A stretch of DNA of 64,000 bases from Owenia fusiformis (Eukaryota; Annelida; Polychaeta; Sabellida; Oweniidae): positions 13,872,714 through 13,936,713 of the forward strand of contig CAIIXF020000007.1 of assembly GCA_903813345.2 (NCBI GenBank). Direction: 5' to 3'. Within the stretch, counting starts at the first letter, position 1. Every line of letters starts with the position of its first letter. The position numbers and the translations under genes were made by a program. The notes beneath the pieces are model-generated. The model was not told where the DNA came from, made no database searches, and saw only the letters and a list, made by a program, of their open reading frames with translations. Below are positions 10,001-57,719 of the stretch, piece after piece.

Positions 10001-10859
10001 CCCAAGACCAAGAAGAAGAGAAGAAAGTATGTGAAGATTTTGAAGGCTTTTTTCATAGTTTCCATACATGAGTTTTCGTCGTCCACCTCTTCGACTGGCA
10101 CGATTCGGAAAGGATCCCATTTGAGATTAGAAAGAGCCCTGAAAAGACCAAAAGGCGTATTTTGTGTTCTCAGCTTGTGATCAATGAAGGCGTTAAATTG
10201 TCCCCCCAATGCAAATCAGTTACTAATATGAAGGCTGTAAAATTGACTTACTTTCTTGATTCCCTTGTAATTTGGTTTGAATCAGCTTCAAGACCTCCCA
10301 ATGAGTCAAAACTGGCACTTTCAGGAACGCCTGTTTGTAATGAAGGTACATCGCTTGTGGATGGAATATTGAAGCCAACGCCATTACTGACTGGTTTGGG
10401 ATTTGGTTTTGTTATAGCTGGCAGTTCAACAATTGTCTCTTCAACATCCTCCAATGGTTCGTAAGTGTTTGTAGTTGTAGTTGTAGCAGGTTTCAGATCG
10501 GTCTCATAAACATCGTCAAATCTTGCATTTTTATGTAGTGCAGATACTTGACGTGTAAACTTTTCAGGACTATAGTCTGGTGCGACATCCTTTGTTCTTG
10601 GAGGTAAATTAGGAGGTTTGGTAGAAGTCAAAGGTGTAACAAAGTCTTCACTATTTTCACGTGTTCCCCTTCCACTGTCCGGGGCATCGCCATAGTCGAC
10701 CGTTGGGTGATTTAGATCTAAGTCTCTTCCATTCCAATTTGGAGTGTAATCTCTATGCAATTTGCTATCATCAAAACCTTGGTTTTCAAAGTAGCTGTCA
10801 TAATCTGGGGGAATGAGGTCGTGATCTTTCTGAGAACGGCGGATTCGATTTGCCGCCAT
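1..10859 (-). CDS. CHS: Chitin synthase (14 coding exons in window, 3' end beyond left edge)
   Basis: Membrane glycosyltransferase (GT2) that polymerises UDP-GlcNAc into chitin and extrudes it through the plasma membrane. Exons, in transcript order: 10859-10252, 10138-9793, 9653-9525, 8622-7634, 7492-7399, 7145-6952, 5865-5786, 5009-4901, 4052-3899, 3392-3182, 2959-2759, 2134-1716, 1024-466, 323-<1. Every junction is GT-AG and keeps phase, giving 1472 codons before the edge. Seen directly: WHEN, ALDGDVDF, GRIHPIGGG, EDRWLCTLLL and QRRRW motifs in family order, SWGTREV after the catalytic core, and many membrane segments. The start ATG has an in-frame TAA 18 bases upstream with no intervening AG, so it is firm. 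No myosin motor precedes the synthase, unlike many molluscan homologues (family knowledge). Introns 2135-2758, 4053-4900, 5866-6951 and 8623-9524 show nothing recognisable apart from a C run in the second. Confidence 0.95.
1099..1642 (-). mobile_element. Mariner-like MITE in chitin synthase intron 12
   Basis: A 544-base non-coding insertion. Its ends read CTGCGTGACACAAAAATGAC and, as reverse complement of the right end, CAGGGTGACACAAAAACGAC. It is flanked on both sides by TA, the Tc1/mariner target duplication. No transposase coding was found inside, so it is a non-autonomous copy. Confidence 0.6.
3718..3890. repeat. Tandem repeat, about 62-base unit, beside exon 9 donor
   Basis: Nearly three copies of a unit with the shared core ACTTCAACCACAACATACAT, each starting TATGACACA. 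The array stops about nine bases short of the splice donor of chitin synthase exon 9. Confidence 0.75.
5130..5339. mobile_element. Palindromic MITE with CAGGCCCGTAGCCAGG ends
   Basis: A 210-base element in chitin synthase intron 7. It has perfect 16-base inverted ends (CAGGCCCGTAGCCAGG / CCTGGCTACGGGCCTG) and is flanked by the direct repeat GCCTC at 5125-5129 and 5340-5344. The interior holds a run of 21 G and one of 10 G. Short open frames across it are not genes. Confidence 0.75.
7399..10138 (-). other. CHS: Chitin synthase exons 2-5: N-terminal membrane bundle
   Basis: Residues 203-722. Exon 2 begins with WDPFRIVPVEE and carries the first membrane helix (FTYFLLFFLVLGSAIF), then an extracellular loop with several N-glycosylation sequons. 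Exon 3 has VRWIWGLTMAV, the family's second helix. Exon 4 is unusually long (989 bases) and encodes about eight further hydrophobic segments. Exon 5 has LFVLPMFCGVMIEQSLMMNRR, the conserved lead-in to the catalytic domain. This layout (multi-helix bundle ahead of the GT2 core) is the standard metazoan chitin synthase topology. Confidence 0.85.
10252..10859 (-). other. CHS: Chitin synthase exon 1: cytosolic N-terminal leader
   Basis: Codes residues 1-202 plus two bases. The segment is polar, with no membrane helix, and rich in Asp, Pro, Thr and Asn. It has a proline cluster (KPPNLPPRT) that could be an SH3-type ligand and a run of five threonines. It looks disordered. The donor is AA|GTAAGT; the matching acceptor lies inside an open stretch at TTTTCAG, joining K to ALSNLKWDPFRIVP. 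A longer reading starting at 10209 was discarded because no acceptor supports it and all upstream joins hit a stop. Confidence 0.8.
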
Positions 10860-11833
10860 AGCGTGATGATTTGATTACAGGGCACCAAAATAATGTAGTT
10901 CAGACCATCATCTGAAATGCATATAAAGGGTATAAATGCCAAGTATTCAAGCTTTATCACCTAACTTTATCTTGTTGTTATTATCAGCATTTTGTGGCAA
11001 TGTTTTTGAGAAATCCAATTTTCTAAATATACTTCAAGGTAAGCATTATATAAAAGAAACAGAGGTTCTAATTGTGATAGTGAATTCCCTCTTAACTTTA
11101 TAAATTCCTATGAATACATTTAGAAAAAGAAGATGGAATATCACAACAAGTCATCATAGGAAAAAAGTACAAATCTGTGAAAATAAACAGCTATTTTATT
11201 AACTGATATTGAAAACTGATACAATCAAAGTATATCAAAAATAAGCGTAATATCAACAGATACAAAATTATAAAAAATAACGACTTACCTTACTCAATTT
11301 GTTTTTCCATTTAGCTGCGAAATATCGTTGATGTTTATATAAGTGAAGGTAGTTGTGTGTTTAGTATACTTATGTTGCAATGATAAAAAATGGTCAAAGT
11401 TTTCTCTTTATCACCCCAACTTATTTGATTGGAGTGTTTTTTAAATTAAGATATGTGGCGGATCACAAGGCTTTTGTATATACTGTATCTGAGAGGAAAG
11501 GTTATCAGTCGATACTTGATATCGTTAATGAGTACATCGAATTTTGAAGTACTGCAAAAAAACATTTCCTTCGTGGAAGATATTGGCTATATTTATACAA
11601 TTGATAAATTAAGAACTTGAATTGTATTTGTTTTAATATAACCTGTTTTTGATATATCCCAGTCTAGTTAGACACAATCGGTACCTGTTTTAATTAACAT
11701 ATATATGATTTGTATACATGGCGACTTCCTTGTATCAACTATAAAAGTATACAATTATTGACTCAATCAGATGTTGACTGCTAAAAATTATATCCCGAAA
11801 CTGAGGTCTCAAAGGAGCACTTGATCCAACAGT

Positions 11834-17600: not shown

Positions 17601-20600
17601 TTTGTGTTTCTCATAATCAGAAAACAATATCATTATCTAATCTTGCAACCATGGTATCCTACAGTAATGATTAATACATTTTGTTTTACTTGACCAATTT
17701 CCGATCTCTTTCAGTGCTGCAAATTGGCTCAGACCCCCAGAGATCAAAACAGCAAAACCAAAATATGCCCCGAGATATCTTACACAAAGCTATATCATGA
17801 ACAACAAACGCAAAGTTGGGTTTGTCGCCTTCTACATCCTCATTAACATTGCACTTTTTCTTGTCTCTGCGATCAGATATAGAGCAGAAAATTGGTTCGT
17901 TATCATCGCACGTGGTTCTGGGATGGACTTAAACTTTAACTGTATGTTTGTACTGGTGTTAATGCTTCGGAAATGTCTGACATGGCTACGGTCAACAACC
18001 TTGGCACAATTTCTTCCACTCGATCAGTCCATTATGTTCCACAAGATGGTCGGCATTGTAATTGCAGTTCAGAGCTTGGTACACACTGTTTGTCACCTTG
18101 GCAATTTAGGTATGTTCACCATGAGTATACCATGATAGGGGTTTGTCAACTTTGACCCACAATGAAATGAATTACGGATACAAGGACCATCTTGCATGTC
18201 TTAAATCATCCCTATGTAAATGTGCTTGTAAATCATAAATTCCGTCATACTTGTAACGTATCATGTAGTAGGTGGTTTTCGTTAGCTATCTAATCGCTAT
18301 ATCTATATTTGCCTTATTATTTTCAGCGTTGGTTGTAGCAAACGTGAACAGTTTTACGTATATGGAATACTTATTCACCACAAAACCAGCGATTGGTTGG
18401 ATTGCTGGGTTAGCTCCACTGTCAGGGGTAGCGCTTGATCTCGTCCTTATTATAATGCTCATCTGTTCCATGCCCTTTGTAAGACGCGGAGGACACTTCC
18501 AGGTAAATATGTAAGCACGTACCAGACCGTCGGATTGATTAGTTAAAGACCAAAATGTAGGATTAACTAACGTCAAGACAATAATGTAGGATTAACTACA
18601 GCTAACTAACACCAATAACCCGATGCCTCTGTCAAATCTGCTAATACAATAAAACTAAGGCGAACACCATTGGGACAGGTTTTAAAAGCGTTCGGTTTTA
18701 GAGGTGTTCACATTTCGAGGTTTTGCATTCTCGAGATTCTGAATTTTGAAGAAGTATGAACACGTTCATCGCATTTCTTTTCACCACTTAGATTTATGGC
18801 ATCCCAGTTATCTGGAAATTTAGTCATGCTGGAAAGTCCCACTATAGATGAGGCCATTTTTCAAAAAGGTTTAATATCAAAAATGACTGTTTACATGTAA
18901 CTGTTCATATTGGGAGGTGATCACATGGGATTTTTAACATGGGAGTTAATAGGAGGAAAAACGGGACCAAAAAAGTCTTCAGATTTTCTTAAAAAATTAT
19001 TGCTGGTATGGTTCGGAGTAAAGATTGTGAAATGAAGCTATGATTGATGATTGTCGTTGTCTATATGTGTATTATTAGTTTCTTCTGACTTACAACACAA
19101 TTGTAGACCTCTCCATTCGGTCAACAGTCAACATCATATACCTCGACTGTAAACCTTGAAACAACTGTTGTCGTAGTTTCTGGGTTTACAGACTCGGTAT
19201 ACAATTTTTTTAAATATCAATTTACAAGTTATTATAATGTATGACTTTTACCTTTGTGTTACGCCCCCAATTTCAGGTATTCTATTGGACCCACTTGTTA
19301 TACGTCATATTTTGGGCGCTCCTGGTGATCCATGGACCAATCTTTTGCTACTGGTTTGCCTTGCCAGGAGTCATATTCATCATAGAGAAGATTTCTAGCT
19401 CAAAGTTCGTGAAATTGGCCCACTATGGGGAGACATATATTAAAGAAGTCAACCTCCTTCCTTCAAAGGTAAGTCTCAAATAATGTATAGAGGCCTAAAC
19501 TTATTTCCTCATAGTAATGCTGCAGTCACATTTGATCTACGGCAACCGTATGGCGGCCGTATCTTGCCAAAATTGAGAGAAATATTATGCAGCATAAAAT
19601 AATGGGATAAACAATATATCCTTTTCAAGAGTTCGATTTCTTGTTTTATTTCAGTGGGAATCGATTTATCCTTTGGAATATTAGTAAAGCGGAGATGTTT
19701 TCTCCAACTTTCACAATGACAGTTGGCCCCTCAATATGTAAATCATGATTTAAAATTTGAATTATGGCACATGCTTTAAGGTGTGGACCTTTATGGATTA
19801 AAATGAGAAATTAAACGTTTCTCATAAATCTTTTTTTAATGATTACAGGTCACACATCTCATCATATCAAGACCAGATAATTTTCGTTTCAAAGCAGGGG
19901 ACTACATTTTCATCAACATCCCCGCACTTGCAGAATATGAATGGCATCCATTTACAATAAGCAGTGCACCAGAATTACGCAGTGAAATATGGGTCCACGT
20001 GCGATCTGTAGGTCACTGGACGGGAAAACTGAATGAATTCTTCGAAAAATATGAAGATTACGAACACGCACGGATTCAGAAGAAAAATACCAAGGTTCGA
20101 CATTGCTGTTGCCCAATATATACAAGTGGTGAGAAAACAAACTATAAATCAAGCTATATCATCAAATTAATATATTTTTGATAGGCAAATATAGAAGTTC
20201 CTGCTAATCTGCTTATATTTTGGTATTTGGCTCTATCATGTTTATCAGATGACATCACCATATGATAATAAACAACATGGACAGATTTCGGGGATAGTGT
20301 GTTATGTGTTTTAACATTATATAATGTAATTTTGTTCCATGGTACGTTTCCCTATTCTTTATATTTTTAACTCATTGATACTCAATATTGATATGAAGAT
20401 AGTGGAAGGGATAGAAAGGGTAAATTGTTGGAACCAATCTTTTCATATAAGCATGCATATGATTTCCTCGCTGTTCTAATTTTATAGAGGATTTTAAGAT
20501 GCAGGAATTTTCAAATTTATTAGATTTTCTCAGAATTATTGTCTAATAACAATAACATTCGGAGGATTATCCCGAGATAAGCTCACAAATGTTTGACATT

Positions 20601-23600: not shown

Positions 23601-26600
23601 CTGTAGCTTCAGCTACTGAAAATCTGAAGACCCTACTAGATGCCAATGAAAAGTTATGGGGAAAAAACTTAACAGGGGGGGGGGGGGTCATTTTGATTTT
23701 ACACATCGTCAATTTAATGGTCATCTTTTGGATGGTAAGATTATAATTTGAAATATATTTATATACTTTTCTCTATATTGTTTTAGAAAACATATAAGAT
23801 ACTTCTTTTGTTCTTGGCATCATATGTTCGGAATGAAATGAAACATCTATCTGAACCTCACTGGAACAAAACGACATAAACACAACGTGTTTAGGTCTCT
23901 CAATATTGTAATTGTACAAAGGAAAGTTTGGTTGATTTTAAAAAAGTATCTTATTAATGAAATAAAAGGTTTATCTTAATTTTTATCTATTTCGGGGGGC
24001 TTTGTTTTAAGTTTTTGCATACTTTTTGTCAAATCAACCAGAATCTCCTAAAGTTGTATAACTATAATATTGAGAGGTCTAAGAAAGTGTTGTATACGCT
24101 ATTTTGTTCCAACAAGGTTCGGAGAGACATTTAATTTCATTCTCAAGAATTTTTTATTATTATTATTATTTTTTTTTTATTTCCTATTTTGTTACATTCA
24201 TACATTGTTCATAATGATTACAAATAATGTAATGCATAAAATATAAACAAAAAGAGACGAAATGATACATTCATACAAAGTCAATTACATTTCTACATTT
24301 GGTTATCCATTTTGATAATATTATATATTTTGTCATATTAAAAATTTGCGAATAATAAAACGCATTTTTGATAAATGCATCTGTTATGTCAAAAAATTTT
24401 CAGTTTTCTTTTTCTTCCGAATATTTACACCAGTTATTGTATATAGTCAATCCTGCTATTGTTAAAATTATGTTTCTATATTTAGTTATAGTGTTTCCGA
24501 ATGGATAACCAATTACAATATGTTTATATTGAATATCACATTTTAACACTCTTCCAATTTTATTCCACAAGGGTTTAACCTTATGGCATTCAAATATCAT
24601 GTGCTTTATATTGTGCAATTGAATACATATTAAACAATTTTTTGAGACTTTGTTATTCCATTTTGATACGAGAGATCCACATGCCAATAAGTTGTTTAAG
24701 AGTTTAAAATTAAACTCTGAAAAATATGTATAGCTCATATTTATTAATTTTTGATCATATATATTTTTCCATAGGTGTTAAGTTGTTCTTTAATATTAAA
24801 ACAAGCATTCCAGTGAGTCTCTTGAATATTTCTTTCAAGAATTGGTAGAAATGAACAAAAAACAATTGCACTAAAAACAAAAAATGTTAACAAAAACAGT
24901 TATAGAAAATATATACAAATAATTTTTGCATTTAATTGTTGCCAATCGGTCAACATTACATAAAGGACCGTCTGTTTTACAGAATGTTTTCAATAATTGG
25001 TTTAAGAGAAAAACATTGTTGAATTCAGTTCACCATATCGATACATATCCTTTACATAATAAATATTATTAAGGATTGAACACACAGAAAAGTCTAAAAT
25101 CATGTGAATTGAAATAAGATATTTTTAGCAAAGGCTTGCATATTGCAACTTAAATACCGTACCTTGTAGATTTCTGTAGTTTTGCACATCTATCAGAAGT
25201 AATTGATTTCATCCTGCAATATCTACAGTACATATGCAGGATGAAAATCAATTGCATCCCCATGTTAATTCAATTAGACCCTTGCCGAAATCCTCATTTT
25301 CTCAGTTGAACTCAAGTTGATTGAGTCTCAACAAGTAGATTCGTGTTGGTGAGTATTGCTAGAATCCATTTTCAATAGTTAGAAATAGGGCACTGGGCTT
25401 GCTTTTTAGAACTTTTTGCTGGTACTAAAATGGTAATAGACCAGTTGTATAGAGAATAAAAAACAATTGACAGACAATTAAATTAAAGTTGTAAATAAAC
25501 CATTTGACACTTAAACGATATTGAAACGTTAACTGAAGATAATCTCTCATAAGATTCACATATCTTCCACAACCTGTCAGGGCTACTATGCTAGATATTT
25601 TCGTAAGATAATGGAAGTCAAAGATTATCACAAATTTCTACTTCATTGAAAACCTGTTTAAAAAGAACGTTCGAAGTTCAAAGGCAATTCATAAATAAGC
25701 TTTACAAACCCTCTCGCAAGAGACTTTTTTATAAATAACCCGCTGACTTCATCTAGAAAAAGGTGTATTTTGATACAATCGATGCTAATAAAACTACAAT
25801 GTATAAGCGTTGAGGTGAGTCTAGATTATCATGTCACAGTAAAGTAATAAAGTAAAACCCTCTTATTTGTCAATTACTTTTTATCGAATCTCTGTAGGAC
25901 ACTTAAAGAAAGTCCATTAATCAGATTGAATTATAATTGTTCACAAAGGAATTTTTCTGAGTGAATACCTCCGAATCTTGACCAATTAAATTTTTACCGT
26001 CCAGCTAATTATTTTTGTGATGAAATCACAAATTCACACCTGAATCTCACCATCCCGTGTAAAATATCAAATGGCACCAAAATTGACACCCCTTACTTAG
26101 AATTCCTCATTCTGTTGGGATGATTATATACCCCCACCAGGGTCAATCAAAATTGTCCACTACATCCCTGGCCCTCTACAAATTCACAGCGGAGATGTCT
26201 TTGTAATTAGTAATACATGCAATCAAATCGTCACTTACAATTATAGAACACTTACGATTGTGCAATTCAGTATCAGTTTTTTTCAAGATATTAATTATAA
26301 GATATCAAATTAAAAATTACAATTTCAAATCAAAAATTAAAATCTCAAGGTCATAAATGTTTTTCATGAATATACGTTATATATTATTCTCTATTCTTTT
26401 AAAAGGCTTTAGGTCTCATTTGTTGACATTTACCCAATTGTTCTAACTGATTTGACAGATTGTTACAGGTTATATCATTATCTTGTGACTACAACTATTA
26501 CAACAAGGTCGAATGTCATTTGAGCATGCATACGGAAGTGTACCTCAATGATATCAGTATACATGTAATACTTTATGTTTTATATCTCTTAATCAGACTT

Positions 26601-30168: not shown

Positions 30169-30175
30169 TATAAAA
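30169..30175 (+). promoter_or_regulatory. Candidate TATA box for the S1 protease homologue
   Basis: TATAAAA lies 61 bases before the start codon at 30237, a position that would put transcription initiation near 30200 and leave a 5' UTR of about 37 bases. Position and match are the only support. Confidence 0.4.
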
Positions 30176-30236: not shown

Positions 30237-33200
30237 ATGTTGCTGTTAACCTTTGTTTGTCTGACTTACTTAACTACAGGTACGTATTCATGATAATCGC
30301 TTACAGTTTTATTTGTACACCATCGTACATCAAAAAACAATCATTTTTGATTTCATATTTGAAACCTTTGCAATTGTTATAGTAAGAAAGCGTATCGATT
30401 TTTGTGAAATGCCCAATATTTCAGGTATAGATACATGTTTATATGAGCGACATTGTAGATTAGTCTCATTTTGATATCTTATTTCATTTCCGCAAAATGC
30501 AACTCAGGTAAACAAATAAAAGGACTTTTGCGTTCCAAAACCAAAGTGACTCTTAAGGCATGGGCGTTAACTTGCAGGTTTTTACTTTGTTAATTAAATT
30601 GACCGAATTATAGCCAACGATTACAAAAATTCTTTAACTTTTTCAAGCTGTTTGCACCAAATGTTGCGATATTAGGATCCATCATTATTTATTGGAATTT
30701 TGAGGCATCGCAATAATATTGTCAGTGTTCGAACACATGTGAATATCAGCACTGCAATTAATCTTTCCAATGTGCTTTGCAGCCAACGCTGTGACGTTGG
30801 GAACAGCAGCAGCATCTGATTGGGGTTACTGGACTGCGTCAATCTTAAAGGTTGATGCAGTGAACTCCAGCATCTACACCCATACATGCGGTGGAGTCCT
30901 CCTGAATACGACTGGTTACGGCAACAGTGATAGGTTATGGATACTGTCAAGCGCAAGATGTTTTGCAGAAAAGTAGGAGTTTTTATATTCTTCCAATATA
31001 AAGAATAGCCACTGATCATACGAGGGGTTATCATAAAGTTCTCATAATATGTCTGGAAAACAAACAATTAAATCAAAACTATTTTCATTTATTCTTTCAC
31101 ATATACACTTACCAACCAGTATCTTACGTAAAAATACTATTCTGTAGGTTTTAGATAAACAAAAAAGTTAGGGGGTCTTAACCAACTTTCGATCTTCAAC
31201 GAAGGGGGGGGGGGGGTGTTTTCTAAGGGTCATTTTTACCCGAATTTTGCCAAACTGAATTATATTGATCAACAAATCCGGAGGGTTCCGATAACCCATT
31301 CACTCAAAAGAGTTTCCTTTTGCTAGTATACATTTATTTCACCTTTCTTTTCCCATTGATCAAATAAATGTAAAAATCCATTGGAAGAGACATTAATTAT
31401 CCCAAGATGATCTTGGTAAGAGTCAATAATTTGTCTGTTTTCTTGGAAAATAGGTTTCATTTCCTTTTCCCCCAGTCACATAGATTATCACAGAAATTGG
31501 AAAACATAAAATCGTTGAAACTCGGAAATAAATCATATTTGTGAAGTATGGCGCAAATGAGTTTACGACATAGGTTTTGGGATAAACAGAATAGTCAGGT
31601 TTAAAACGTTGGCATTACCCCTTGGTCAAAATAATGTACAGGGTGAGCCAAAAAGGTAATCAAATAATAACTCAGACACTATGGGTTTAGGTCATATTTG
31701 GCGAAATTGAACTTTGTTCAATACTAGTATCCTTCCATTCTACGAAGTCTCATTGTCCTAATCCCAATGATTAAGATTTTAAATGGCAATTTTACAAAAT
31801 ATGCTAAAAACGACTTGTATATTGAATGATAAACAAAAATGTAACCATATAATGCTTTTAAACGATAAGTACTTTTTTTGGAAAACATTTAGTTTTTTTC
31901 GAAAAATATAGATACAGACAGAAGCCATATACTCGTAGCATACAACTCACCTACCATAGCTTAATGTTACGTAATAATGGATACATATGATTTTAGCCAA
32001 ATCACTGCTGATTGGAGGGTTGAGGTGGGTAGACGACACATTCTAGACGACGATCCCTCAACTGTACAACTTAAGCCAGTCTCAAGGATCATTAGGGTGA
32101 GTTTCTGGACAACTCATAAGTAGGGAACAAAGCGCACATTTTTTAAATATGACTTTTTTGAGTGAATGAATTTTTATCATCATATAATATATTTTCGACC
32201 TGTATTGTTATATTTCTTATTTTGAATCAACTAACTTAAGACAATGCCAACATTACAAGGGTTCAAAGGTAGAATCAGATCTCATATACTGAGTGACAAA
32301 ATTACAAGCAACATATACAGTTGATGTAACAATGTATTCCTTACAATCCCAAATATTTTGTTTCAAAAGATCTCACTTGTTTAAGTTGCGAAGTGTAAAA
32401 ATGCAGAAATGTTTAATTTCTCACAAATAATAAATATGGTAAGCATATTTATAGACAAATGAATGCATAGTTGAAAAATCTTTAGTTTTTCTCGAAGACA
32501 TGACAAGGAACGATTAAGCCCAAAATATTCTAAATTAAATCAAAACAACTTTTTGTCAATGTTGGGCGCTGGTATAACTATATATTGTGTCTCGAAAATT
32601 GTACCCAAAAGTATATCAACAGCAAAGATAAACCAATCAATATTTTCAGATATGTTTTGCATAGTCATTTTGGCAAAACATGTACGTTTTCTCCCCAATA
32701 CTAAATTATCGTTCAGTCTTGCCTTTTTAATGCTTTAACCCTTTTTATAGCATTTGTTAAATTTAACCTCCTCATATTTCGATGACAGCCTGTACCCTTA
32801 CTACTCTCCTACACTGTGATCACATTTCGAAATGTTTCTGGTGGAATGTTTTGAATTTCTTTCAGATGTTGGCCTTTTATATGTTGTTATAGGTCTTTTG
32901 GCTTGGGATTAGTATGTTATTAATATGGTTCAATCTCCTCACAATGTCTTTATTCAGAGAGATCATGCAGACGTTGAAATTGCTTGAATTCTTGTGTGAC
33001 CCTTGCTGTACGTGGAGGGGCTCAATCTTTTTGAGACTACATTGTTCTCATTTGTCTCCATAATTCTGGAAATTGAAGCTCCATTATCAACTGCTGCTAA
33101 AACATTTGACGAAACTGGACCTGGTTCTCTATGATTGTTCTGTCGTCTTCATCGTCGAATTTCTTTCTCTGGGGCTATTTGAAGGATTATTTTAAGCTTA

Positions 33201-36200
33201 TCTCAAGCCAAAATATCTTATTAGGCCCGAACAACTTAAGGCCGACATCCAAAGAGAAATTCAAAACATTTCACCAGAAACATTATCAAATGTGATGTAA
33301 CATAAGGATGATCATGAAAGAAATGTTTGAAAATATTGATTGGTTTAGCTGTGCTGTTGATATACTTTTGGGTACATTTTTGAGACACCCTCTTGCTAGA
33401 TCTGATACTACTTTATAGCGTTTTAAAGCTATGCATCATCAATCAAATACAGGGAAGTTTGGATTACTTATATATTGAAGCTTATACACCTTAAGGATAT
33501 TCAAGGAGGTCAAATTCATCCACATATGGGCCTTTGTTTCAGTACCCCACTTACGACATCAACGACTACCAAGTGAACGACATTGCGCTTGTAAAGATGG
33601 GTAGCCGAGTTTCTTTGAACAGTCGAGTGGGAGTAGCTTTTCTTCCATCCAGAACTAATGAAAATTACGTGGGCAGAGACTGTTATCTGAGTGGCTGGGG
33701 AAAATTAAACAGTATGCTCTTTCTCACAGTGTTTTTCTGATTTTTCGGGTGTTACAAAAAGTGAACCGCTTTACTAATGCCTGGGTCACATTTGCTGCGA
33801 TTCATCGACCGGCGCCCGGCCGATGAGTACTCTGTTCAAAACTGAATACATTTGTGAACAGGATACTCAATAGGCCGTTCGCCGGCCGTTGAATCGGAGC
33901 AAATGTGACCCAAGCATTAGCAAATGATTATTCAAATCCATTATAAAATAGCCAAAGGGTATCATCAGCAACGTGTACAAACATGAAAGAGATCTGTTAC
34001 ATATTGTGTGAGAACTGACAAATCCAAAAATGCATGTAAAGAGAATCCAATATCAGATCGAGCTGCGCAACGAGACCTTTATAGCGCTTGTGCCTGCAAT
34101 CTGGTGATAGCATCTATATCAATCAGTTTTAGTCTCAAAAACAATTTGTCTGTGTGTCAGATTTCTAGGTTTCTTACATTGTTCTCTGTTTCCGAAATAC
34201 GCTCTGTCCAAAGGACCACGTGCAGTATGGCAAGTGATTTTAGACGGTCATATCTTTCACCATGAGTACTTTCTGGGCGTAAATACAGTGGTTTTCATTA
34301 AAACAACATGTTTTCTTTCAAGTTAAGTCCCCATGATGATAAAAATATCATTCGAACAATTCGAAAAATTATAAATAGGGACCCCACGTCAACAATTTTT
34401 TCAAAATGTTGACTTTATTTGCTCAAAAGAAGATCTTCTTTTTCTGATTTTTATTGTACGAAAATATTATTCAATAAGGGGTCTATTTAACATCTAGATC
34501 TTCAAAAGTAGAATGGTATTGAAAGTCTAGTTCTGAAGATATCAATTTTCGATGACCAAAAGCATGCTGAAAACAATGGATAGCATGAGTTTTCCCTATG
34601 GGAAAATAACATGGGAAATGTTGTTTTTAACTTTATCGCATTTCAATACCCACCCCCTTTTCAGAAGTTATTAATATAGTGTAGAAGAAACTTTTGATAT
34701 ATTTAAATTGAGAAAAACACGATCCTCTTTTTAGAAAATAAGCCTTACATTTTCAAAAAAGTGCAAAGATGGGGTCCTAGACCATAATTTTTCAGAGAGT
34801 TGGATTGATATTTTACTATCATGGGGACTTCACTTTAAAGAAAACATATTGTTTTAATAAAAACCACTGTATTTATATCCAGAAAGTACTCATGGTGAAA
34901 GATATGGCTGTTTAAAATCACTTGCCATACTGCACATGGACCTTTTCAGTTTGGAGGGACAAAGAATTTTAATGATAAGCGATGGGGTTACTCCTGAAAA
35001 CTGTTTAAAGTGAAAGTTTTCGGTGGAAGATGAATCGTAAAGAAATTAAGAGCAACATTCATGTTACTGTAAACAGACTTAAGAACAAAAATGCACTACA
35101 TCCAACTTGCATTAAAGTATGGAATGATTATTATGTTATTGGAGGCGAAACAGCTTCTTTAAGTCTGAAATAAGTTACTTTTCCATTGATATCGGATATT
35201 TTGGCATGGATTTTCTGGTATAATTTGCAACTGATCTCTTTTACATTTTTTATGATACCCTATTCCTTATAAAAAAGCGATCGGCTTATCTAGCTATATC
35301 CTTAAGTGAGAAAATACTTGCAAAAAGCGGATCACCTTTTTGGGACACCCGATATATCATTTTATCGTATATGATCTGTAAAATGAAGCCTTCTGATTGG
35401 TCAGTTCTTGTGCTGTGCCAATCTGTATTGCTACTGAGATTGTCCCCATTGATCATCTCCGTCGTAATAAAGAAAATGTTGGAGGGGCCATTCTCAGTAG
35501 CAATACAGAGGATCACACGATGAAACCGTTATAGAATGATTTGAAGTGCAATACAGGATATATTCTGCTCTCGATATTCTGTATTGACTTCGTCTCGTTG
35601 CAATACGGAATTTCTCGAGCAGAATATATCCTGTACTGCATTTTCAAATCATTCAATCACTTATAGTATTGAACATGTTGCCTGGAAATCTATCCATCAC
35701 GTGTTCGTATTATTAACTTGATTCTGTGTCATCCTCCAAACACAGGGGTTCCGTGATCCAGAAGTAAGAGTGGATGATGTCTTGACCCCATCTTTCGGAC
35801 GATGATCTTTTTAAAAAGTCACGATAAGTGTGGGAAAGAAAAGTCTCTTTTTTGAAGTGAACTGTATATAGCAGTATAGTGAATGAAACAAATGTATTCT
35901 TAGAACGTAAAAGGCGGGCCTTCCTGGGTCAGTCAAAATTCCACATCGAATGATGGCGTCAGTGTGGGGTACTTAACAAGTACTGTCTACGTTTATTATA
36001 AAGGCTTTGATGAAGACACCGCCCCGGAGTTCATCCTAGGAGGTCGAGCTATGCAGATCGCAGACACGTTTACAATCTCCAACGCTGACTGCTCCAGCCA
36101 GTACCCTGCCATTGTAAACACCATGGTCTGTGCAATGAGGTCAGAAACAGAATACCCAAGTCCGTGTGGAGAGGTAGGTGGACTAGACTTGAATTGCATT

Positions 36201-37808
36201 TAGACATGTAGTCTGAAGAGCTCATTTTCTCAATTCATATATAAAATGACAATGTTTGATATATTATTATTATTATTATGAGCTTTATTATACTTGTATC
36301 CCACATTTGGGCAAAGTGTACAGCTTAAACAGAAAAAATGAAAAAGCGTAACTAATTATCTATATATTATATTAACTAATCAAAGGGTGCTTGATCATTG
36401 CAAGATTTTATTGGTTGCATTTCGTGTTTTTCTCTCTCGATAAAAATATTAGATATATATTTTGCTAGTATATTTAATATTATTCCCTCTGAATTAAATA
36501 GAAACATTAATTTATGTTCCACGTTATTCATGTTTTCTAAATTTTGACAGTGTTTTTTTATTTTATCCATGTAACTTGACCGAACATCTTTTAACTTATT
36601 GCATTCTAATAGGAAATGGCATTCTGAACCGGTTTTCTTGTTACACATTAAACATTTTCTTTCTTCAATAGGGGTGAATGGTTTTGTGTAACGACCTGTT
36701 TCGATTTCTAATTTATGTGCGCTAATTCTAAGCTTTGTCAAGTTATTTCTGTCTATTTCATTTTTGATTAAATCCAAGTAGGGTTCCTTGTTCCATTTTG
36801 CTTTTATTATCTTATAAAACCTCAATTTACCATTATTTGATTTTATTTTTGTTTCCCAAAATTGTATGTATCTATTTTCCAGTAATTTATACGTACACAT
36901 ATCAGCCTCTGGTTCCCAGCAGTGCTTGACTATATATCATCACCGTAAAATCCTATTTTTGATTCTTGTTTTTGAATTAAATATGAAGTAAAAATTGAAA
37001 TAAAAAAACTTGAAAATGGCTTCATGTATATTGTATTATACAGTATACACTATACACTGGTGATCCACTCGATTACGCTGGTTACCAAAACGAACCGTTT
37101 TGGTAACAAAATGTCGGAACGTCGAAGGCACGATTTTTCTTTTTTCCTTATTTCACGCGTTGTAGGCAGAATCCCCACGACGTTTTTTCTCACAACGTGC
37201 ATCAGTATCATATGTTTTAGAAAATGTACATGTTTGCGAAAAAATAGCTCAGAGGACAACAGAATCGTCGATTTACTTCGTCACTTAAGTTACATAAACG
37301 GTTTTTCGAAAAACAGTTAAGATCTGCAATTTTAACCCAAACCGTTTATGTAACTTCAGTGAGGAAGTAAATCGACGATTCTGTTGTCTTCTGAACTATT
37401 TGTTCGCAAATATGTACACTTTCTTAAACATATGATACTGATACACGTTTGTGTTAAAAGATGCCATGGGAATTCTGCCTACAACGTGTAAAATTAGGAA
37501 ACGAGAAAAATCGTACCTTCCGGATGTTCCGACATTTTGTTACCAAAACGAACCGTTTTGGTAACCAGCGTAATCGAGTGGATCACCAGTGCTATACAGT
37601 ATTGATGGTGCTTTTTCAGAGAGATTACGGCTCTCCATTGATTTGTAACGCTGGGAGCGTTAACAGCCCCATCTATCGAGCAGCTGGTATATCAACTGGA
37701 CAGTGGCCCGGGCAGAACTGTGGAGACAACTCTCTAACTCCAATACCACTATTTACAAGAGTAGCTCCATTCATCACCTGGATCCAGGATACCGTCACTA
37801 ACAATTAA
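30237..37808 (+). CDS. Secreted S1-family serine protease homologue, catalytically inactive
   Basis: Chymotrypsin-fold protein of 316 residues. Exons: 30237-30279 (signal peptide), 30783-30972, 31997-32096, 33543-33711, 35914-36173, 37620-37808. The signal peptide MLLLTFVCLTYLTTANA is followed directly by VTLGT, at the place of the IVGG mature start, so there is no zymogen propeptide. The triad His is Arg (SSARCF, residue 73), the Asp is kept (VNDIALVKM, 124), and the Ser is Tyr (RDYGSPL, 257). Cys pairs typical of the fold are kept: TCGGV/ARCF, RDCYLSGWG/PLIC, ADCSS/MVCA, SPCGE/GQNCG. The start of exon 5 is uncertain (35914 keeps phase; 35904 has the better pyrimidine tract but breaks it). 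Likely role: binding, decoy or regulatory protein outside the cell (inference). The polyadenylation signal is at 37836. Confidence 0.85.
30783..30972 (+). other. Protease homologue exon 2: His57 position is Arg
   Basis: Encodes ANAVTLGTAAASDWGYWTAS and, further on, HTCGGVLL and LWILSSARCFAE. In active S1 enzymes the last motif reads AAHCF. Here codon 30956-30958 is AGA. All three bases differ from CAC, and at least two from CAT, so this is not a single-base accident. Confidence 0.85.
32583..33391 (+). mobile_element. Internally deleted mariner/Tc1-like relic in protease intron 3
   Basis: Inverted ends of about 65 bases. The left reads GTGTCTCGAAAATTGTACCC, and the reverse complement of the right reads GTGTCTCAAAAATGTACCC; both continue AAAAGTATATCAACAGC. 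Near the right end the plus strand reads RPEQLKADIQREIQNISPET, resembling the C-terminal segment of mariner/Tc1 transposases. Frameshifts and stops are abundant. It ends 151 bases before exon 4. Confidence 0.7.
33774..33920. mobile_element. Palindromic MITE (CTAATGCYTGGGTCACATTTG ends)
   Basis: A 147-base element whose two halves are inverted copies: CTAATGC then TGGGTCACATTTGCT on the left, AGCAAATGTGACCCA then GCATTAG on the right, with a GC-rich centre (CGGCGCCCGGCCGATGAG). It lies in protease intron 4. Confidence 0.75.
34213..34942. repeat. Foldback element with about 130-base arms
   Basis: Arms 34213-34344 and 34812-34942 are inverted copies (left GTGCAGTATGGCAAGTGATT; right, reverse-complemented, the same with few changes), continuing through CCATGAGTACTTTCTGG and AAATACAGTGGTTTT. 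The spacer of about 470 bases is non-coding. It lies in protease intron 4 and would form a long hairpin in the pre-mRNA. Confidence 0.8.
35422..35512. repeat. Small hairpin (TCTGTATTGCTACTGAGA arms)
   Basis: TCTGTATTGCTACTGAGA at the left and TCTCAGTAGCAATACAGA at the right, perfect over 18 bases, separated by about 50 bases. It lies in protease intron 4. Confidence 0.7.
35530..35666. repeat. Hairpin element (GGATATATTCTGCTC arms)
   Basis: Left arm TATAGAATGATTTGAAGTGC then AATACAGGATATATTCTGCTC; right arm is the inverse (GAGCAGAATATATCCTGTA, then CAAATCATTCAA, CTTATA). It belongs to the same family as the hairpins closing the 28512-29815 duplication. Confidence 0.75.
36258..36950 (-). mobile_element. 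5'-truncated LINE, ORF2 C-terminus, in protease intron 5
   Basis: The minus-strand frame with stop at 36376 includes LTKLRISAHKLEIETGRY, PFTPIEERKCLMCNK and ECHFLLECNKLKDVRS, which is the zf-RVT zinc-binding C-terminus of a non-LTR reverse transcriptase. The 3' end has a (TAA)n tail, seen as TTATTATTATTATTA near 36260-36276. The reverse transcriptase domain is missing. Antisense to the host gene. Confidence 0.8.
37055..37591. mobile_element. 537-base foldback transposon with near-full-length inverted arms
   Basis: Begins CACTGGTGATCCACTCGATT and ends with its inverse. Each arm is about 260 bases, meeting near 37320. The internal palindrome GGTTACCAAAACGAACCGTT sits near both ends. It is flanked by CTATA at 37050-37054 and 37592-37596 as target duplication. 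No coding. It inserted in intron 5, just 28 bases before the acceptor of the last protease exon. Confidence 0.88.
37620..37808 (+). other. Protease homologue exon 6: Ser195 position is Tyr
   Basis: Encodes RDYGSPLICNAG where active enzymes have GDSGGPLVC. Tyr is codon TAC at 37626-37628. The oxyanion Gly is also Arg. The rest of the C-terminal barrel is normal, including AAGISTGQWPGQNCGDNS and FTRVAPFITWIQDTV, ending TAA at 37806-37808. Confidence 0.85.
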
Positions 37809-40749: not shown

Positions 40750-41840
40750 CATGAATCGACAATGTCTTGATGGTTGTTTTATAATCAACCTTCGAATACA
40801 ATCCACTGACGGCCTCTATTTTATATTGGTCCATATCGGTACCATCCATGACATACGGTATGGATATCCTGCCATTGAAACAATGTGATTATGATACCCT
40901 TGAATTGACACATAGACAAATAGCAAAACGTATTCAACAATTGCCATGTAATGTGCATAACGAAGCTTCCTTGGCACAACTGGGCTGGTCGAGGATTCGT
41001 GCGGTCATAGATACAAAAAAGTTAATGTTTCTGTGGTGTATCCTAAATCTACCAACCACATGTGTGTATAAAATGATTTTTATAATTGAGTTCTTTAGAT
41101 GGAAGTCAATTTCTGAACACTCAAAGTTGTATAGCAACTATTCAGTAATAAATGCAGTTTTGAACCTTGTGACAAGATACAATTTATGGCGATATATTGA
41201 TGAATATTTTTTGAATTATGACCTGATGCCCAAATGTGCGTGGAAACGGATTGTTAAAGCACGCATAATGCAGTATGAAGAAGACAGATGGCACTTGTTA
41301 TGTAACATATCTAACAGACTTAGCGTTTATAGAACGATACAAGTTACGATAAAACCATGCGTATGGTGGAGAATCTGTCAATCGAATTGTAAATATATAG
41401 GGATGTGTAGGGATATGGTAAAACTGCTAACAGGTGCTTTCCCACTCAACTATGACACCATTTGTCCTCTGTGTGGGATGGCAAATGAAACGACAAGGCA
41501 TTTTCTCTTAGATTGCCTTGAACTTCATGAAAGTAGGAGTGACTTGTTGGCAGTTTTAAGTGACAGAATATTTGATGGATATAATATGGTTGAAAAAATG
41601 GAGGTCTTACTAGGAAAAAATGAAGCATTAGACTACAGAATGTATGTGAAGATAATGTTAAGTGTCAAACACATGTTAAAAACAAGAGCTGCAGCTATAG
41701 CTCTATAAACTATTAAATCAACACAGTTTGCGTTGTAAATATATATATTTTTATTTTTATATTTTTAATATTGCCACATTAACTTTATAATTATTATGTA
41801 CTCATCTGCATAGGTGGAAATAAAGATACATAAACATAAA
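40750..41840 (+). mobile_element. 5'-truncated LINE, ORF2 C-terminus
   Basis: An open frame to the stop at 41708 reads SILYWSISVPSMTYGMDILP, ALTHRQIAK-type palm/thumb sequence (LELTHRQIAKRIQQLP), then a long connector and CPLCGMANETTRHFLLDC, a zf-RVT knuckle. It is followed by a 3' UTR and a short (ACATAA)n tail near 41830. Intact over almost 290 codons, so probably a fairly recent insertion, but it lacks the reverse transcriptase active site. Confidence 0.8.
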
Positions 41841-47200: not shown

Positions 47201-50200
47201 TGCAGTCAAATGCAAAAATAATGTTTTATAAGAAAATATATTCGAAGGAAACAATTTTTTTTTGAAGTTTCACTGTTTTGTTCAATGATACTTAACTTCT
47301 TTGTTTTTCTCAGAGAAATCATGAGAGTCTATTACCAACTTTTTTATTACAGGAAGAAGTTTTTCGCTCCATGAAACGTAAGGCTAAGAAGACTAAAAGG
47401 AAGCAGAGAATCCAAGAAGAAGAGAATGATGAGATTGAAGACATCTTGCAGGAGGAACTTTCTGCAGTCCCTCGTCCAAAACTCATTGATCTTTTACCAT
47501 TAAAACTGGTCAGGTATTCAGCCAACGCTACTGTCTTTTAGGTTTATCTATTGACCCATTTAGAATATTCTCATACAGTACTAATATTTATCGTTGGAAC
47601 ATTTAATTATCCAATTGTAATGTTTTTTGTAGTGTATCTATTTGTCCCCAACACCCCCTCCCCGATTTCAAAATTCCTATTTCATATCTAACCAAAGCTA
47701 ATGTATGGGTTTATTGGTTGTAATATATCCAATTTGATTTCATTTTGCATCTCTTATTTTAAGATCCTGGCTATAGACTATTTTTATCCCATCGAAAGAA
47801 GTATGGAGGGATATAGGGAACGCCTCCGTCCGTCCGTATGTACGTCTGTAGGGACGTACGTACAGACCGTCCGGGCAATAACTCAAATACGGTTGGCCCG
47901 ATTTTATTCATATTTTGTACACATATACCCTATGGGGGTAGAAATTGTGCTTGAAAGCCGATTTTCAAAATGGCCGCTCATTTAAAAATGGCGGCCATTT
48001 TAGTGCCGATTTTACAGTAATTTAGGTGCAATATGTAAAACTGTAATAGCAATATGTTTTAAATGTAAAAAAAATAATATAGGACATTAATAAAGCTAGA
48101 AATGTAGATATTAAAAAAGCATATGGCAGCCATCTTGAAAAATGGCGGCCTTTACTCGTATTTTACGATTTTTGCTGAAACTCGAAAAGTAGTAGAGCGA
48201 TTTTGTTCATATTTGGTATGTGAATACTATAAGCATGGCACACTGTCTAGTGACACTTTTGGTAGAAGGCGGCCATTTTGAAAAATGGCAGACATTTTGA
48301 AAAATGGCCGCCATTTTAACTTATTTTACTAAAACTCGAAAACAAGGAGGATTGGCTCCCAGAGTGCACCACCGATATTCTGTCCCATATATGGGTATGT
48401 CGTAATACAAAATTCGAATTCAAACAGCCGCCATTTTGTTCACTTCAACATTTAAATCGTGAATTTTGGTCTTATTTCCAAACGAAAAATTCCAAAACTC
48501 ACAAGAAACGATCGAGATATTGGTTCGAATCTTTTGAACTGTTTATTTTGAATTTATAGTCGGTTTTAATTTCAGAAAATAACGACATTTCGACGTTTTC
48601 ATTGTTGGAAAATATCGAGTTTCGATCCTGGGAGCCAATCCTCCTTGCTCGAAAAGTAGTGGAGCGATTTTGTTCATATTTGGTATGTGAATACGTATAA
48701 GCATGGCACACTGTCTAATGACACTTTTGGTAGAGGGCGGTCATTTTTCAAAATGGCCGCCATTTTAACGTATTTTATTATAACTCGAAAAGTAGTGGAG
48801 CGATTTTGTTCATATTCGGTATGTGAATACTGTAAGCATGGCACACTGTCTAATGACACTTTTGGTAGAAGGCGGCCATTTTGAAAAATGGTGGACATTT
48901 TGAAAAATGGCTGCCATTTTAACTTATTTTACTATAACTGGAAAAGTAGTGGAGCGATTTTGTTCATATTTGGTACGTGAATACGTATAAGCATGGCCGC
49001 CATTTTAACATATTTTACTATAACTTGAAAAGTAGTGGAGCGATTTTGTTCATATTTGGTATGTGAATACTATAAGCATGGCACACTGTCTAATGAGACT
49101 TTTGGTAGAAGGCGGCCATTTTTCAAAATGGCCACCATTTTAACACATTTTACTATAACTCGAAAAGTAGTAGAGCGATTTTGTTCATATTTTGTACACA
49201 TATACCCTATGGGGGTAGAAATTGTGCTTGAAAGCCGATTTTCAAAATGGCCGCTCATTTAAAAATGGCGGCCATTTTAGTGCCGATTTTACAGTAATTT
49301 AGGTGCAATATGTAAAACTGTAATAGCAATATGTTTTAAAGGTAAAAAAAATAATATAGGACATTAATAAAGCTAGAAATGTAGATATTAAAAAAGCATA
49401 TGTCAGCCATCTTGAAAAATGGCGGCCTTTACTCGTATTTTACGATTTTTGCTGTAACTCGAAAAGTAGTAGAGCGATTTTGTTCATATTTGGTATGTGA
49501 ATACTATAAGCATGGCACACTGTCTAGTGACACTTTTGGTAGAAGGCGGCCATTTTGAAAAATGGCGGACATTTTGAAAAATGGCCGCCATTTTAACTTA
49601 TTTTACTAAAACTCGAAAAGTAGTGGAGCGATTTTGTTCATATTTGGTATGTGAATACGTATAAGCATGGCACACTGTCTAATGACACTTTTGGTAGAGG
49701 GCGGTCATTTTTCAAAATGGCCGCCATTTTAACGTATTTTATTATAACTCGAAAAGTAGTGGAGCGATTTTGTTCATATTCGGTATGTGAATACTGTAAG
49801 CATGGCACACTGTCTAATGACACTTTTGGTAGAAGGCGGCCATTTTTCAAAATGGCCACCATTTTAACACATTTTACTATAACTCGAAAAGTAGTAGAGC
49901 GATTTTGTTCATATTTGGTATGTGAATATTATAAGCATGGCACACTGTCTAATGACACTTTTGGTAGAAGGTGCCCGTTTTGAAAAGTGTTCGATGGGAT
50001 TTGCTACGCTTTGGCATTGCCGTTATTCTGGTTATGTGTTATTGATAAAAGTCTGCTTGTATATTTATAGGTTGGTGGTAGGTGCAGTTATTGGCATCCC
50101 AGGTGCAATATTAGAAGCTAAGGCAAGGTATGAGGAATACAAAGAAGAGAAGAGGAGGCAGAAAGAAGAGGAGGAGCTGGAACTGGAGGAGGCTAATGCT

Positions 50201-52596
50201 GCAGGTAGATTGACTATAAAAAGTATTTTAGGACCAGGACCAGATAAACTGTTCCATTAGAATTTTCTGTCTTATCATTGTAGATTGATTAACCAAAGTA
50301 TACATGTAGCTGAAATCCCCACGATATTCTTAGTGCACAGATGCAGAAGCTTGTCCTGTATCTTAGAATACAAAGTTTGGCCACTTTTCTACATTTGAAA
50401 TCATAAGCTTCAATATTTGCTACATAAACAAAACTATTGATTTCTATGGATAAAGCTAGACCTACAGAAGTTGTGAATTCTGAATCGTATTACATCCTTG
50501 TACTTACTCATTTTTTTACTCATTTTCTTGTACTTAGTGCAAATATCAATCAATATTTAAGGCTTCATATATACTGTTTCAGGAGAAGTTGTGAAGCGTC
50601 CTAAGAAACGTCAGAGGGTTGTTATACAAGAGTATGATGCAACACTATACAGTAATTCAAACCCTGTGATCTACAATGCTTCAGCTGACCAAGATCAAAA
50701 TGAAGTGGATACAAAACAGATAACAACTAAAGTTAGTGTTCTTATTCATTCATTTACACACATGAAGTTCTGTAAGGTTATCATTGTTTCTGTTCAAAAA
50801 GCTTGAAGTTGCACAAATGTAGAACATTAGAAGTTAACAATAGATAATATGTTAGTTATTCTCACACAGAACACACTGATAGATTAAGGACATCGATACA
50901 CATTCTTACAAGTGACAGAGCTTCGCAACTGTGACAATTTTCAAAAACATGTATTTTAGGTTATCATTGCATAGACTCAACATAATAACTAGTCTAAACT
51001 GTGAGGAAAACTTGATATGTAAAAATGTTAATAATTTGTTGTTAAAATTTCAGAATGAAGGAGAATGGACAGATGAACATACATCATTACTTGCTAAAGC
51101 AGCTAAGAAATTTCCTGGTGGAGTTTCAGGCAGATGGCAGAAAATAGCAGAATTTGTTGGGCGCCCTGTATCAGAGGTAATAAGCATTAAATGTTGAGAC
51201 TCATTCTTCTCATTCTAAATAATGGGTCACTTGCAATTGGTTTGTGTAATTCTAAACAAGTTCCTTGGTAATGCATTCATCTCTAATTTCCTGAACTCAA
51301 CAGACAAATTACAGTGTGAGTATTTAAGAGTTTTTAAAAGTCAAAATAGTCAAATAGAAATAATGAAAATACCAAACAGTCTCATAACCCCCAATGGTAC
51401 ACATAGGGATTTAGATGGGCAGAATGGAACCTCTTTAAAGTATACAAGGCTGCATGTTAAAGACAATAAAACCTCGTCCGTATATTCGATGTTATTCGAA
51501 GTATTTTTCATATTTAAGTGGTTGCTGTCATTTCAGGTGATTACCCACTCTAAGAAGATGAAGGCTGGCTTTGCTGTTTCCATAGACCCTTCAGCTCAAG
51601 GTATCGTAGGTGCTGCAAAGGACAACTCTAAAATACTGAAAAAGGGCAGTCATATAAACCCAGATATCTATAGTAGAAACGAAGAAGACATTAAACCTTT
51701 ATCCAATGGCAATGTGTCCAACACAAGCACCAAATCTAGTGCCAATACTAATGAAACTACACAAAAGATCTCTAAAAGTAGTAGTAATAATACTTCATCT
51801 GTGAAATCCACAAGATCTGATGGTGCTGCTTCTACTGAGGTGGGAAGTAATGAAGGTGACTGGTCTCAGAACCAGCAGAAAATATTAGAATGGGCTCTTG
51901 GGCAATTCCCTAAGGGCACTGAAGCTAGGTGGGACAAGGTAGCAGAGCATATACCTGGAAAAACTAAGGTGAGAACACTGGGAATATAGATTGACTGACA
52001 TTCGTGGACAGGGTTTCCACAGTCAGGAAAAGTTTTAGAAAATTTGATAAGATTCAGTGAAATTTTGGTAACGAAAATGCATTGTATTCATTTTTTGTCC
52101 ATAGATAAAAGCTCATAAAATTTGACAAGATTCTGTGAAATTTTAATAACGAAAATGCATTGTATTCATTTTTCGTCTATAGATAAAAGCTCAGAAAATT
52201 TGACAAGATTCGGTGAAATTTATGCATTATATTCATTTTTCGTCCATACATAAAAGCTCATTTGGTTATGGTGTTTCACATTTGAATGAGGGAAAAATCA
52301 ATGAATTTTTATATGAAAATGTTATGGTTGTACTAACCCTGTTGAACTGTGAGTCTGTTTGGTTGTCTGCCAATGTTTATGTTTCTTTATTGGCATCCTT
52401 ATACCGTCTGTACAATGTATATAGGCATAAATTGCTTCGATTTGTTTAGATGTGCAACCATCAGATTTTATAACTGTGTAACTGTTAAGTACAGGATATA
52501 ATGTGCTATTTATTTTATTTTCAGGATGAGTGTGTTACTAGAGTAAAGTTCTTGCTAGAATTAGTAAAAAAACGTAAAGCAGCCACCACAACATAG
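44202..52596 (+). CDS. DNAJC1: DnaJ homologue subfamily C member 1 (9 exons, complete)
   Basis: ER-membrane J-protein that stimulates the luminal Hsp70 BiP and exposes SANT domains to the cytosol. Exons: 44202-44351, 46258-46406, 46954-47125, 47353-47513, 50071-50204, 50583-50731, 51054-51176, 51537-51968, 52525-52596; in phase, 513 residues. Seen: signal peptide ([20 protein letters not shown], cleavage near KA|WD), [20 protein letters not shown]-domain with HPD at 69-71, [18 protein letters not shown], a membrane helix, a basic coiled segment, SANT1 ([20 protein letters not shown]) and SANT2 ([20 protein letters not shown]), and a basic tail. The start was chosen for its signal peptide and G at -3 and +4; an in-frame ATG at 44106 would add 32 residues. 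The exon 6 donor AAA|GTTAGT is weak. AATAAA at 52988 is the nearest signal. Confidence 0.95.
44910..45039. mobile_element. Diverged short copy of the CAAGGAGGATTGG MITE
   Basis: Left CAACGGAAGATTGGCTCCCA then GAGTGCAACA; right end, reverse-complemented, CAAGGAGGATTGACTCTCAG then AATGCAACA. About 28 bases of imperfect inverted ends around a 70-base centre. Same family as 48343-48647. No target duplication remains. Confidence 0.6.
45300..45697. repeat. Foldback with about 130-base arms in DNAJC1 intron 1
   Basis: Left arm AGTAAAATTTTAAATGTTTG then GAACTACTTTGAATTTAAAA; the right arm is its inverse with few changes through a shared AAAAATAGAAA and TGTCCT(A)ACTTTTGTATATTT. Total 398 bases. It would form a long intronic hairpin. 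Confidence 0.8.
47786..50000. mobile_element. Tandem-repeat element filling DNAJC1 intron 4
   Basis: Begins TATCCCATCGAA (in ATCCCATCGAAAGAAG) and ends with the inverse TTCGATGGGAT. Near the left is a GTCCGTCCGTATGTACGTCTG segment. The core is about ten copies of a unit of roughly 137 bases containing GGAGCGATTTTGTTCATATT, AAGCATGGCACACTGTCTAA and AAAATGGCCGCCATTTT. The 415-base stretch 47928-48342 recurs almost unchanged at 49190-49619, and 48656-48890 at 49620-49850, so the core grew by segmental duplication. Open frames here are repeats, not genes. Confidence 0.8.
48343..48647. mobile_element. 305-base MITE with 20-base perfect ends and 8-base target duplication
   Basis: Ends CAAGGAGGATTGGCTCCCAG and CTGGGAGCCAATCCTCCTTG. 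Flanks CTCGAAAA at 48335-48342 and 48648-48655. The duplicated copy of the host repeat at 49612-49619 has a single CTCGAAAA running straight into GTAGTGGAGCG: the empty site. The 8-base duplication suggests hAT-type mobilisation. Confidence 0.93.
51054..52596 (+). other. DNAJC1: DNAJC1 exons 7-9: paired SANT domains
   Basis: Exon 7 encodes SANT1 with the three spaced Trp/Phe core positions ([25 protein letters not shown]). Exon 8 is a Ser/Thr/Asn-rich linker and the first two helices of SANT2 ([20 protein letters not shown]). Exon 9 completes SANT2 ([18 protein letters not shown]) and ends TAG. Intron 8 carries the tandem repeat 52029-52262. Confidence 0.9.
52029..52262. repeat. Tandem repeat, about 80-base unit, DNAJC1 intron 8
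   Basis: Almost three copies of a unit with AAAATTTGACAAGATTC, GTGAAATTT, AAAATGCATTGTATTCATTT and ATAGATAAAAGCTCA. Confidence 0.75.
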
Positions 52597-57446: not shown

Positions 57447-57719
57447 AGCTCACATGGTGAGCTTTTGCAATCACTCACTTGTCCGTCTGTCCGTCCGTCC
57501 GTCTGTCAGTCCGTCTGTCTGTCCGTCCGTCTGTCCGTCCGTCAACAATAGTGGCACGTTTTAAAACCTCTGTCGATAGGATTCCTGCTTTAAGTTATTT
57601 CTGTTCAACATCAATACAGAAAACTCCCCTATGACTCCTGGTTCAAAAGCTCGCCTATTTTCAAAATGGCCGCCACTTTTGTCTCGCGAAATTCACTTTT
57701 GACCCATTTGTTGAGGTAT

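Follow-up and report, generated by a model that had tools for sequence, protein, structure and literature searches.

A probable secreted trypsin-like pseudoprotease of Owenia fusiformis with a replaced catalytic pair and no recognizable activation site

A six-exon gene in a 64 kb stretch of Owenia fusiformis DNA (64,000 nucleotides, hereafter the window) encodes a chymotrypsin-fold protein whose active site is predicted to be dead. We consider it likely that the product is a secreted, single-domain, non-catalytic S1A homolog (a serine protease homolog, SPH, or pseudoprotease) that works as a zymogen-shaped binding protein. The sequence basis of this reading is a signal-peptide-like start, eight core cysteines and a frame that stays open under several splice choices, combined with the loss of His57, Ser195, Gly193 and the activation cleavage site. 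The gene is real and probably functional, and it is probably one more representative of the numerous, well-known inactive proteins that resemble proteases. An earlier note on this DNA had described a catalytically dead chymotrypsin-fold homolog with an open frame, a description that the residues, the Pfam match and the splice forms all support.

The six joined exons (30237-37808; Table 1) give 951 nt, or 316 codons plus a stop, running from a start codon at 30237 to a stop codon at 37806-37808 with zero internal stops. Splice sites were scored with approximate weights against a background of 571 GTs and 582 AGs, and on this approximate scale the donors of introns 1 (the exon 1 donor), 3 and 5 all fall in the 99.8th percentile of the background GTs. 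The G+C content of exons 2-6 is 0.44-0.50 and that of exon 1 is 0.35, with the introns at 0.32-0.36. A TATAAAA (30169-30175), downstream of which the start codon is the first ATG, and an AATAAA are suitably placed around the gene and were counted in favor of a working gene; the two motifs occur 23 and 75 times, respectively, on the plus strand of the 64 kb. Codon-usage support is modest and was counted against the main reading. The score was derived from seven open frames in the window, some of which lack a proven identity, and by it the true frame is the best of six in 3/7 segments (exon 2, the later part of exon 5, and exon 6); exons 3 and 4 score positively, yet frames with stops score higher, and neither exon 1 nor the initial 126 nt of exon 5 is remarkable.

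Table 1. Features of the pseudoprotease gene and of its intron 5, in window positions
Feature	Positions	Strand	Remarks
Possible TATA box TATAAAA	30169..30175	+	begins 68 nt before the start codon
Exon 1	30237..30279	+	signal-peptide-like MLLLTFVCLTYLTT, judged by eye; phase 1 at end
Exon 2	30783..30972	+	mature N-terminus without basic cleavage site; Ser32 and His40 positions, C42, C58, Arg at His57 (30956-30958); phase 2 at end
Exon 3	31997..32096	+	acceptor at 50th percentile; phase 0 at end
Exon 4	33543..33711	+	Asp102 kept (33579-33581), C136, SGWG; phase 1 at end
Exon 5, long form	35914..36173	+	C168, C182, C191
Exon 5, short form	36040..36173	+	TAG acceptor 36037-36039; gives a standard-length domain
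Open frame in intron 5, 186 codons	36376..36936	-	resembles a LINE remnant by eye; unmatched in Pfam
Large foldback element in intron 5	37055..37591	.	inverted repeats I2, I3, I5; ends 28 nt before exon 6
Exon 6	37620..37808	+	Arg at Gly193, Asp194 kept, Tyr at Ser195 (37626-37628), Ser at Gly197, C201, C220, altered segment around 214-216, stop
Possible polyadenylation signal AATAAA	37836..37841	+	27 nt past the stop codon

The product belongs to the S1A (chymotrypsin-fold) family, and its match to the Pfam Trypsin domain (PF00089) is far above chance. The product with the long exon 5 matches in two stretches (E 8.9e-24, 85 bits), with Trypsin the sole family returned at a limit of E 1, and the product with the short exon 5 matches in one stretch covering profile positions 22-220 of 220 (E 1.4e-27, 97.4 bits). 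The best solved-structure matches have E 4.2e-16 (long) and 3.2e-19 (short), with 282 and 338 distinct solved-structure sequences, respectively, under 1e-5. Digestive trypsins, elastases and plasma kallikrein rank at the top, and none of azurocidin, haptoglobin or named serine protease homologs is among the best 60 of the 282 or the best 60 of the 338. After the signal-like start, cysteines stand at residues 50, 74, 158, 227, 240, 252, 263 and 288, which an alignment to rat trypsin places at C42, C58, C136, C168, C182, C191, C201 and C220 in the standard numbering. The four core bridges have all eight of their cysteines, as the earlier note had claimed. Three yardstick sequences (chymotrypsin, elastase and rat trypsin) are identical at 62 aligned columns, among which the long product keeps 36 and the short product 35. 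The kept columns include S32, H40, D102, D194, W51, W141 and W237 and seven of the eight cysteines, the last being placed elsewhere in this alignment; the changed columns include V17, H57, G193, S195, G197 and S214. Gly43, Gly44, Gly140 and Gly142 are retained as well.

Where an active S1A protease carries His57, Asp102 and Ser195, the window protein carries Arg, Asp and Tyr, the same three residues that had been read from this DNA before. The catalytic His is replaced by Arg73 (AGA) in SSARC, where the family has AAHC; the Asp is kept as Asp124 (GAC) in NDIAL; and the Ser is replaced by Tyr257 (TAC) in RDYGSP, where the family has GDSGGP. The earlier estimate of at least two base changes for His to Arg was too low, AGA differing from CAT and CAC at 3/3 positions, and the conclusion once drawn from those changes, that the loss is not recent, does not follow, since a three-base difference between His and Arg codons gives no date. 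Judged from the aligned sequences, the loss is deeper than the earlier note saw: the activation site is absent, and Gly193, Gly197 and Ser214 are replaced as well. The CQGDSGGP of rat trypsin corresponds to CGERDYGSP, with one residue extra, and the alignments to rat trypsin and the yardsticks put Arg at Gly193, of the oxyanion hole, and Ser at Gly197. Ser214 becomes Thr in the three-yardstick alignment and Gln in the rat trypsin alignment. The substrate-binding strand is altered and less certainly lost, because both alignments retain Trp215 behind a two-residue insertion, with Gly216 possibly kept. Asp189 of trypsin aligns with Pro or Ser, at a position that varies among active enzymes too.

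The mature protein begins AVTLGTAAAS, where active enzymes show a basic residue and then IVGG; position 16 is Val (residue 18, right after the signal-like start) and position 17 is Thr. No basic activation site precedes I/V16, and with no Lys or Arg before residue 37, the first in the whole protein, the usual activating cut cannot occur. The pseudoprotease would fold, would escape cleavage at residue 15/16, and would hold a zymogen-like shape through the kept Ser32-His40-Asp194 set. Asp194 of an active enzyme swings toward the newly formed N-terminus; since no new N-terminus is expected in the window protein, Asp194 may stay with His40, and we suggest a zymogen-like contact between the two. 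A factor XII structure paper names Ser32, His40 and Asp194 the zymogen triad (PMC4418343), and all three residues are present in the window protein. Active enzymes conserve these residues too, so that keeping them supports a zymogen-like shape weakly. Such a protein could act as a binding scaffold or decoy and not as an enzyme, and its partner might be an inhibitor, an active protease, or a ligand of microbial or dietary origin.

Several splice choices are available at intron 4. On the approximate scale described above, the donor at 33711 scores -1.3 (84.9th percentile of the 571 background GTs), and another donor, at 33728, is weaker (-4.7). The first acceptor, a TAG opening exon 5 at 35904, lies at the 50th percentile, level with the accepted exon 3 acceptor. 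Its junction with donor 33711 breaks the frame and gives eight internal stops, so that the earlier claim of intact splice phases throughout holds for several routes and fails for this one. From donor 33711, an AAG acceptor opening exon 5 at 35914 leaves the frame open (GWGKLNSGPSW) with a score of -8.8 (23rd percentile of the 582 AGs), and a TAG acceptor opening it at 36040, 126 nt further in, does the same with a score of -1.7 (76th percentile), dropping 42 residues and giving the usual domain length. That acceptor 35904 is out of frame and outscores 35914, and that the intron 4 donor is middling, was counted against the main reading. Donor 33728 joined to 35904 also gives an open frame, as does donor 33711 with any of five other in-phase AGs inside exon 5. 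Every open form computed retains all eight cysteines together with the dead active site. In our view the long form is no more probable than the short one.

A dead active site in an open frame could arise by decay as well as by selection. If the gene had descended from an active protease and decayed neutrally for a long time, its catalytic residues having drifted by chance, widespread change would be expected, and 26/62 invariant columns are indeed changed. The activation and catalytic machinery (columns 17, 19, 57, 102, 193, 194, 195 and 214, a list picked after the sequence had been seen) is kept at 3/8 positions against 8/8 core cysteines (Fisher p 0.026), or at 4/10 when positions 15 and 16 are added (p 0.013); set against the other invariant columns, of which 21/54 are changed, the 5/8 machinery changes are not significant (p 0.26). 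An ungapped reading in which Trp215 and Gly216 were lost (8/12 machinery positions, Fisher p 0.005, joint chance ≤4.5e-7) was rejected, since the alignments keep Trp215. Neutral drift was simulated with substitutions only and no indels, in 3000 copies at each of six levels. At 28% changed residues the frame stayed open in 24/3000 copies of the long form and 50/3000 of the short form, at 35% in 5/3000 and 15/3000, and at 41% in 2/3000 and 9/3000, with 0/3000 at that level also keeping the eight cysteines. The 5/8 machinery columns set a lower 95% bound on change of 0.29, and the joint chance of at least 5/8 machinery changes, an open frame and eight cysteines is ≤7.5e-5 at the six levels. The simulation thus speaks strongly against long neutral drift, and we regard an old neutral pseudogene as very improbable, because so much neutral change nearly always brings stops. 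From the sequence we infer selection for a non-enzymatic role.

The simulation leaves a recent death of the gene untouched. A formerly functional non-catalytic homolog could have been lost lately, for example through damaged intron 4 splicing with the frame otherwise unbroken, and both the pairing of the better donor, 33711, with the first acceptor, 35904, and the large foldback element that ends just upstream of exon 6 are what such an event might leave. This course of events is unlikely: the in-frame TAG at 36040 gives a standard-length product with the better Pfam score, the donors of introns 1, 3 and 5 are among the strongest of the background, and the TATAAAA and AATAAA are both present. 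It is rather improbable, too, that the gene model itself is in error, with other exons or splice sites in use and parts of the protein wrong, in which case the dead active site would still stand. Exon 4 ends in phase 1 where phase 0 is needed at 35904, a mismatch that an extra small exon in intron 4 or donor 33728 would reconcile, and the first 126 nt of exon 5 look ordinary by codon usage (288/3490 background segments are open in frame, as this one is, and 68/3490 are open with a codon score at least as high). Set against this, donor 33711 has seven in-phase acceptors between 35890 and 36110, all open; the 126 nt have an exon-like G+C of 0.484, which 85/3227 overlapping background windows reach; and the position and phase of intron 4 suit a trypsin-type gene.

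A working, non-catalytic homolog is the reading we prefer, and its class can be compared with that of characterized SPHs. In a study of Tenebrio molitor, an SPH is an S1A domain with at least one triad residue replaced (PMC11172050), and the window protein, an S1A domain with 2/3 triad residues replaced, is accordingly an SPH. The same study counts 269 S1A sequences in this beetle, of which 125 are SPHs, 102 of them without regulatory domains; H57 remains in 42 SPHs and S195 in 24, 13 have a changed D102, and Tyr is among the residues found at position 195 in 1-4 SPHs each (PMC11172050). Tenebrio single-domain SPHs resemble the window protein in being a bare secreted S1A domain with His57 and Ser195 replaced and Asp102 kept, in a processing site that is sometimes unrecognizable, in a commonly acidic pI, and in the rare Tyr195 replacement (PMC11172050). 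The window protein has lost Gly193 and Ser214 too, losses that other SPHs may share, and it differs from the Tenebrio SPHs in a possible 42-residue extra loop.

The two likenesses proposed in the earlier note, to clip-domain SPHs and to azurocidin, fit poorly, given the absence of any detected clip domain and the non-cationic character of the protein. Clip-domain SPHs, of the masquerade-like and PPAF-II type, have a dead S1A domain in common with the window protein, but Pfam at a limit of E 1 found Trypsin alone and no clip domain, and this gene model leaves no room for one between the signal-like start and the core. Azurocidin (heparin-binding protein) is, like the window protein, a single dead secreted S1A domain, although it is strongly cationic and carries other replacements. 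The predicted mature pI of the window protein is 4.9 (long) or 6.2 (short), with 21 Lys and Arg against 27 (long) or 22 (short) Asp and Glu.

Pseudoproteases have been sorted into ligands, cofactors and scaffolds in a paper on PRSS23 (PMC13194640), which also describes an extended loop for receptor binding in haptoglobin. The haptoglobin protease-like domain and PRSS23 are secreted pseudoproteases, as is proposed for the window protein. PRSS23 shares with the window protein the want of a working activation switch; in keeping the triad and losing Asp194 and His40 it is the reverse of the window protein (PMC13194640). Set beside these two, the window protein has no further domain found by Pfam. 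By analogy with the haptoglobin receptor loop, we speculate that the gene could yield a zymogen-locked pseudoprotease in two forms through the choice of 3' splice site at intron 4, with the 42 residues of the long form (35914-36039), which carry one N-glycosylation sequon near the autolysis-loop site, providing a glycosylatable loop that binds a partner; we think this elaboration improbable. Taken alone, the gene is an unexceptional case within a large class. If it is expressed and conserved, it would be useful for asking why a protease fold persists after catalysis ends, since the activation site, the catalytic pair and the oxyanion glycine would be lost where the core fold and the zymogen triad stay.

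No relative was confirmed in prokaryote genomes (0 of 25 pattern matches), and none of the literature titles listed names this gene, a single search having been aimed at an Arg/Tyr replacement. No second copy was seen in the 64 kb: a tblastn search with the spliced protein returned its own six exons and three other places at E 6.9-8.9, and one with the N-terminal half of rat trypsin returned two of this gene's exons, all else being at E 1.5 or worse.

Ten inverted-repeat pairs were found, of which 0/10 overlap an exon and 9/10 lie in introns. Large inverted-repeat elements occupy 32595-33381 (intron 3), 34210-34945 (intron 4) and 37055-37591 (intron 5), and are perhaps non-autonomous transposons. 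Open frames resembling LINE remnants by eye lie at 24400-24777 (minus strand), 36376-36936 (minus strand) and 40785-41708 (plus strand); a zf-RVT match, under the Pfam cut-off, is confined to the first of these. Elsewhere in the window, a chitin synthase gene lies at 446-8622 on the minus strand. Its segments 1707-2174 and 7630-8622 reach the Pfam thresholds (Chitin_synth_2, ChitinSynthase_IV_N) and 446-1078 gives a sub-threshold match; 10248-10874 has no match. The frame at 17671-18135 (plus strand) belongs to an NADPH oxidase 5-like gene (best solved-structure match NADPH oxidase 5, E 6.2e-32), to which the frames from 14088 on may also belong. At 51219-51989 (plus strand), perhaps with 49898-50260, lies a DNAJC1-like gene, a 43-residue piece of which matches DnaJ homolog subfamily C member 1 (E 3.1e-10), and two open frames of repeated units of the kind FYTFYTFDLLFPITVFDKSDVYS follow at 57594-59151 (plus strand).
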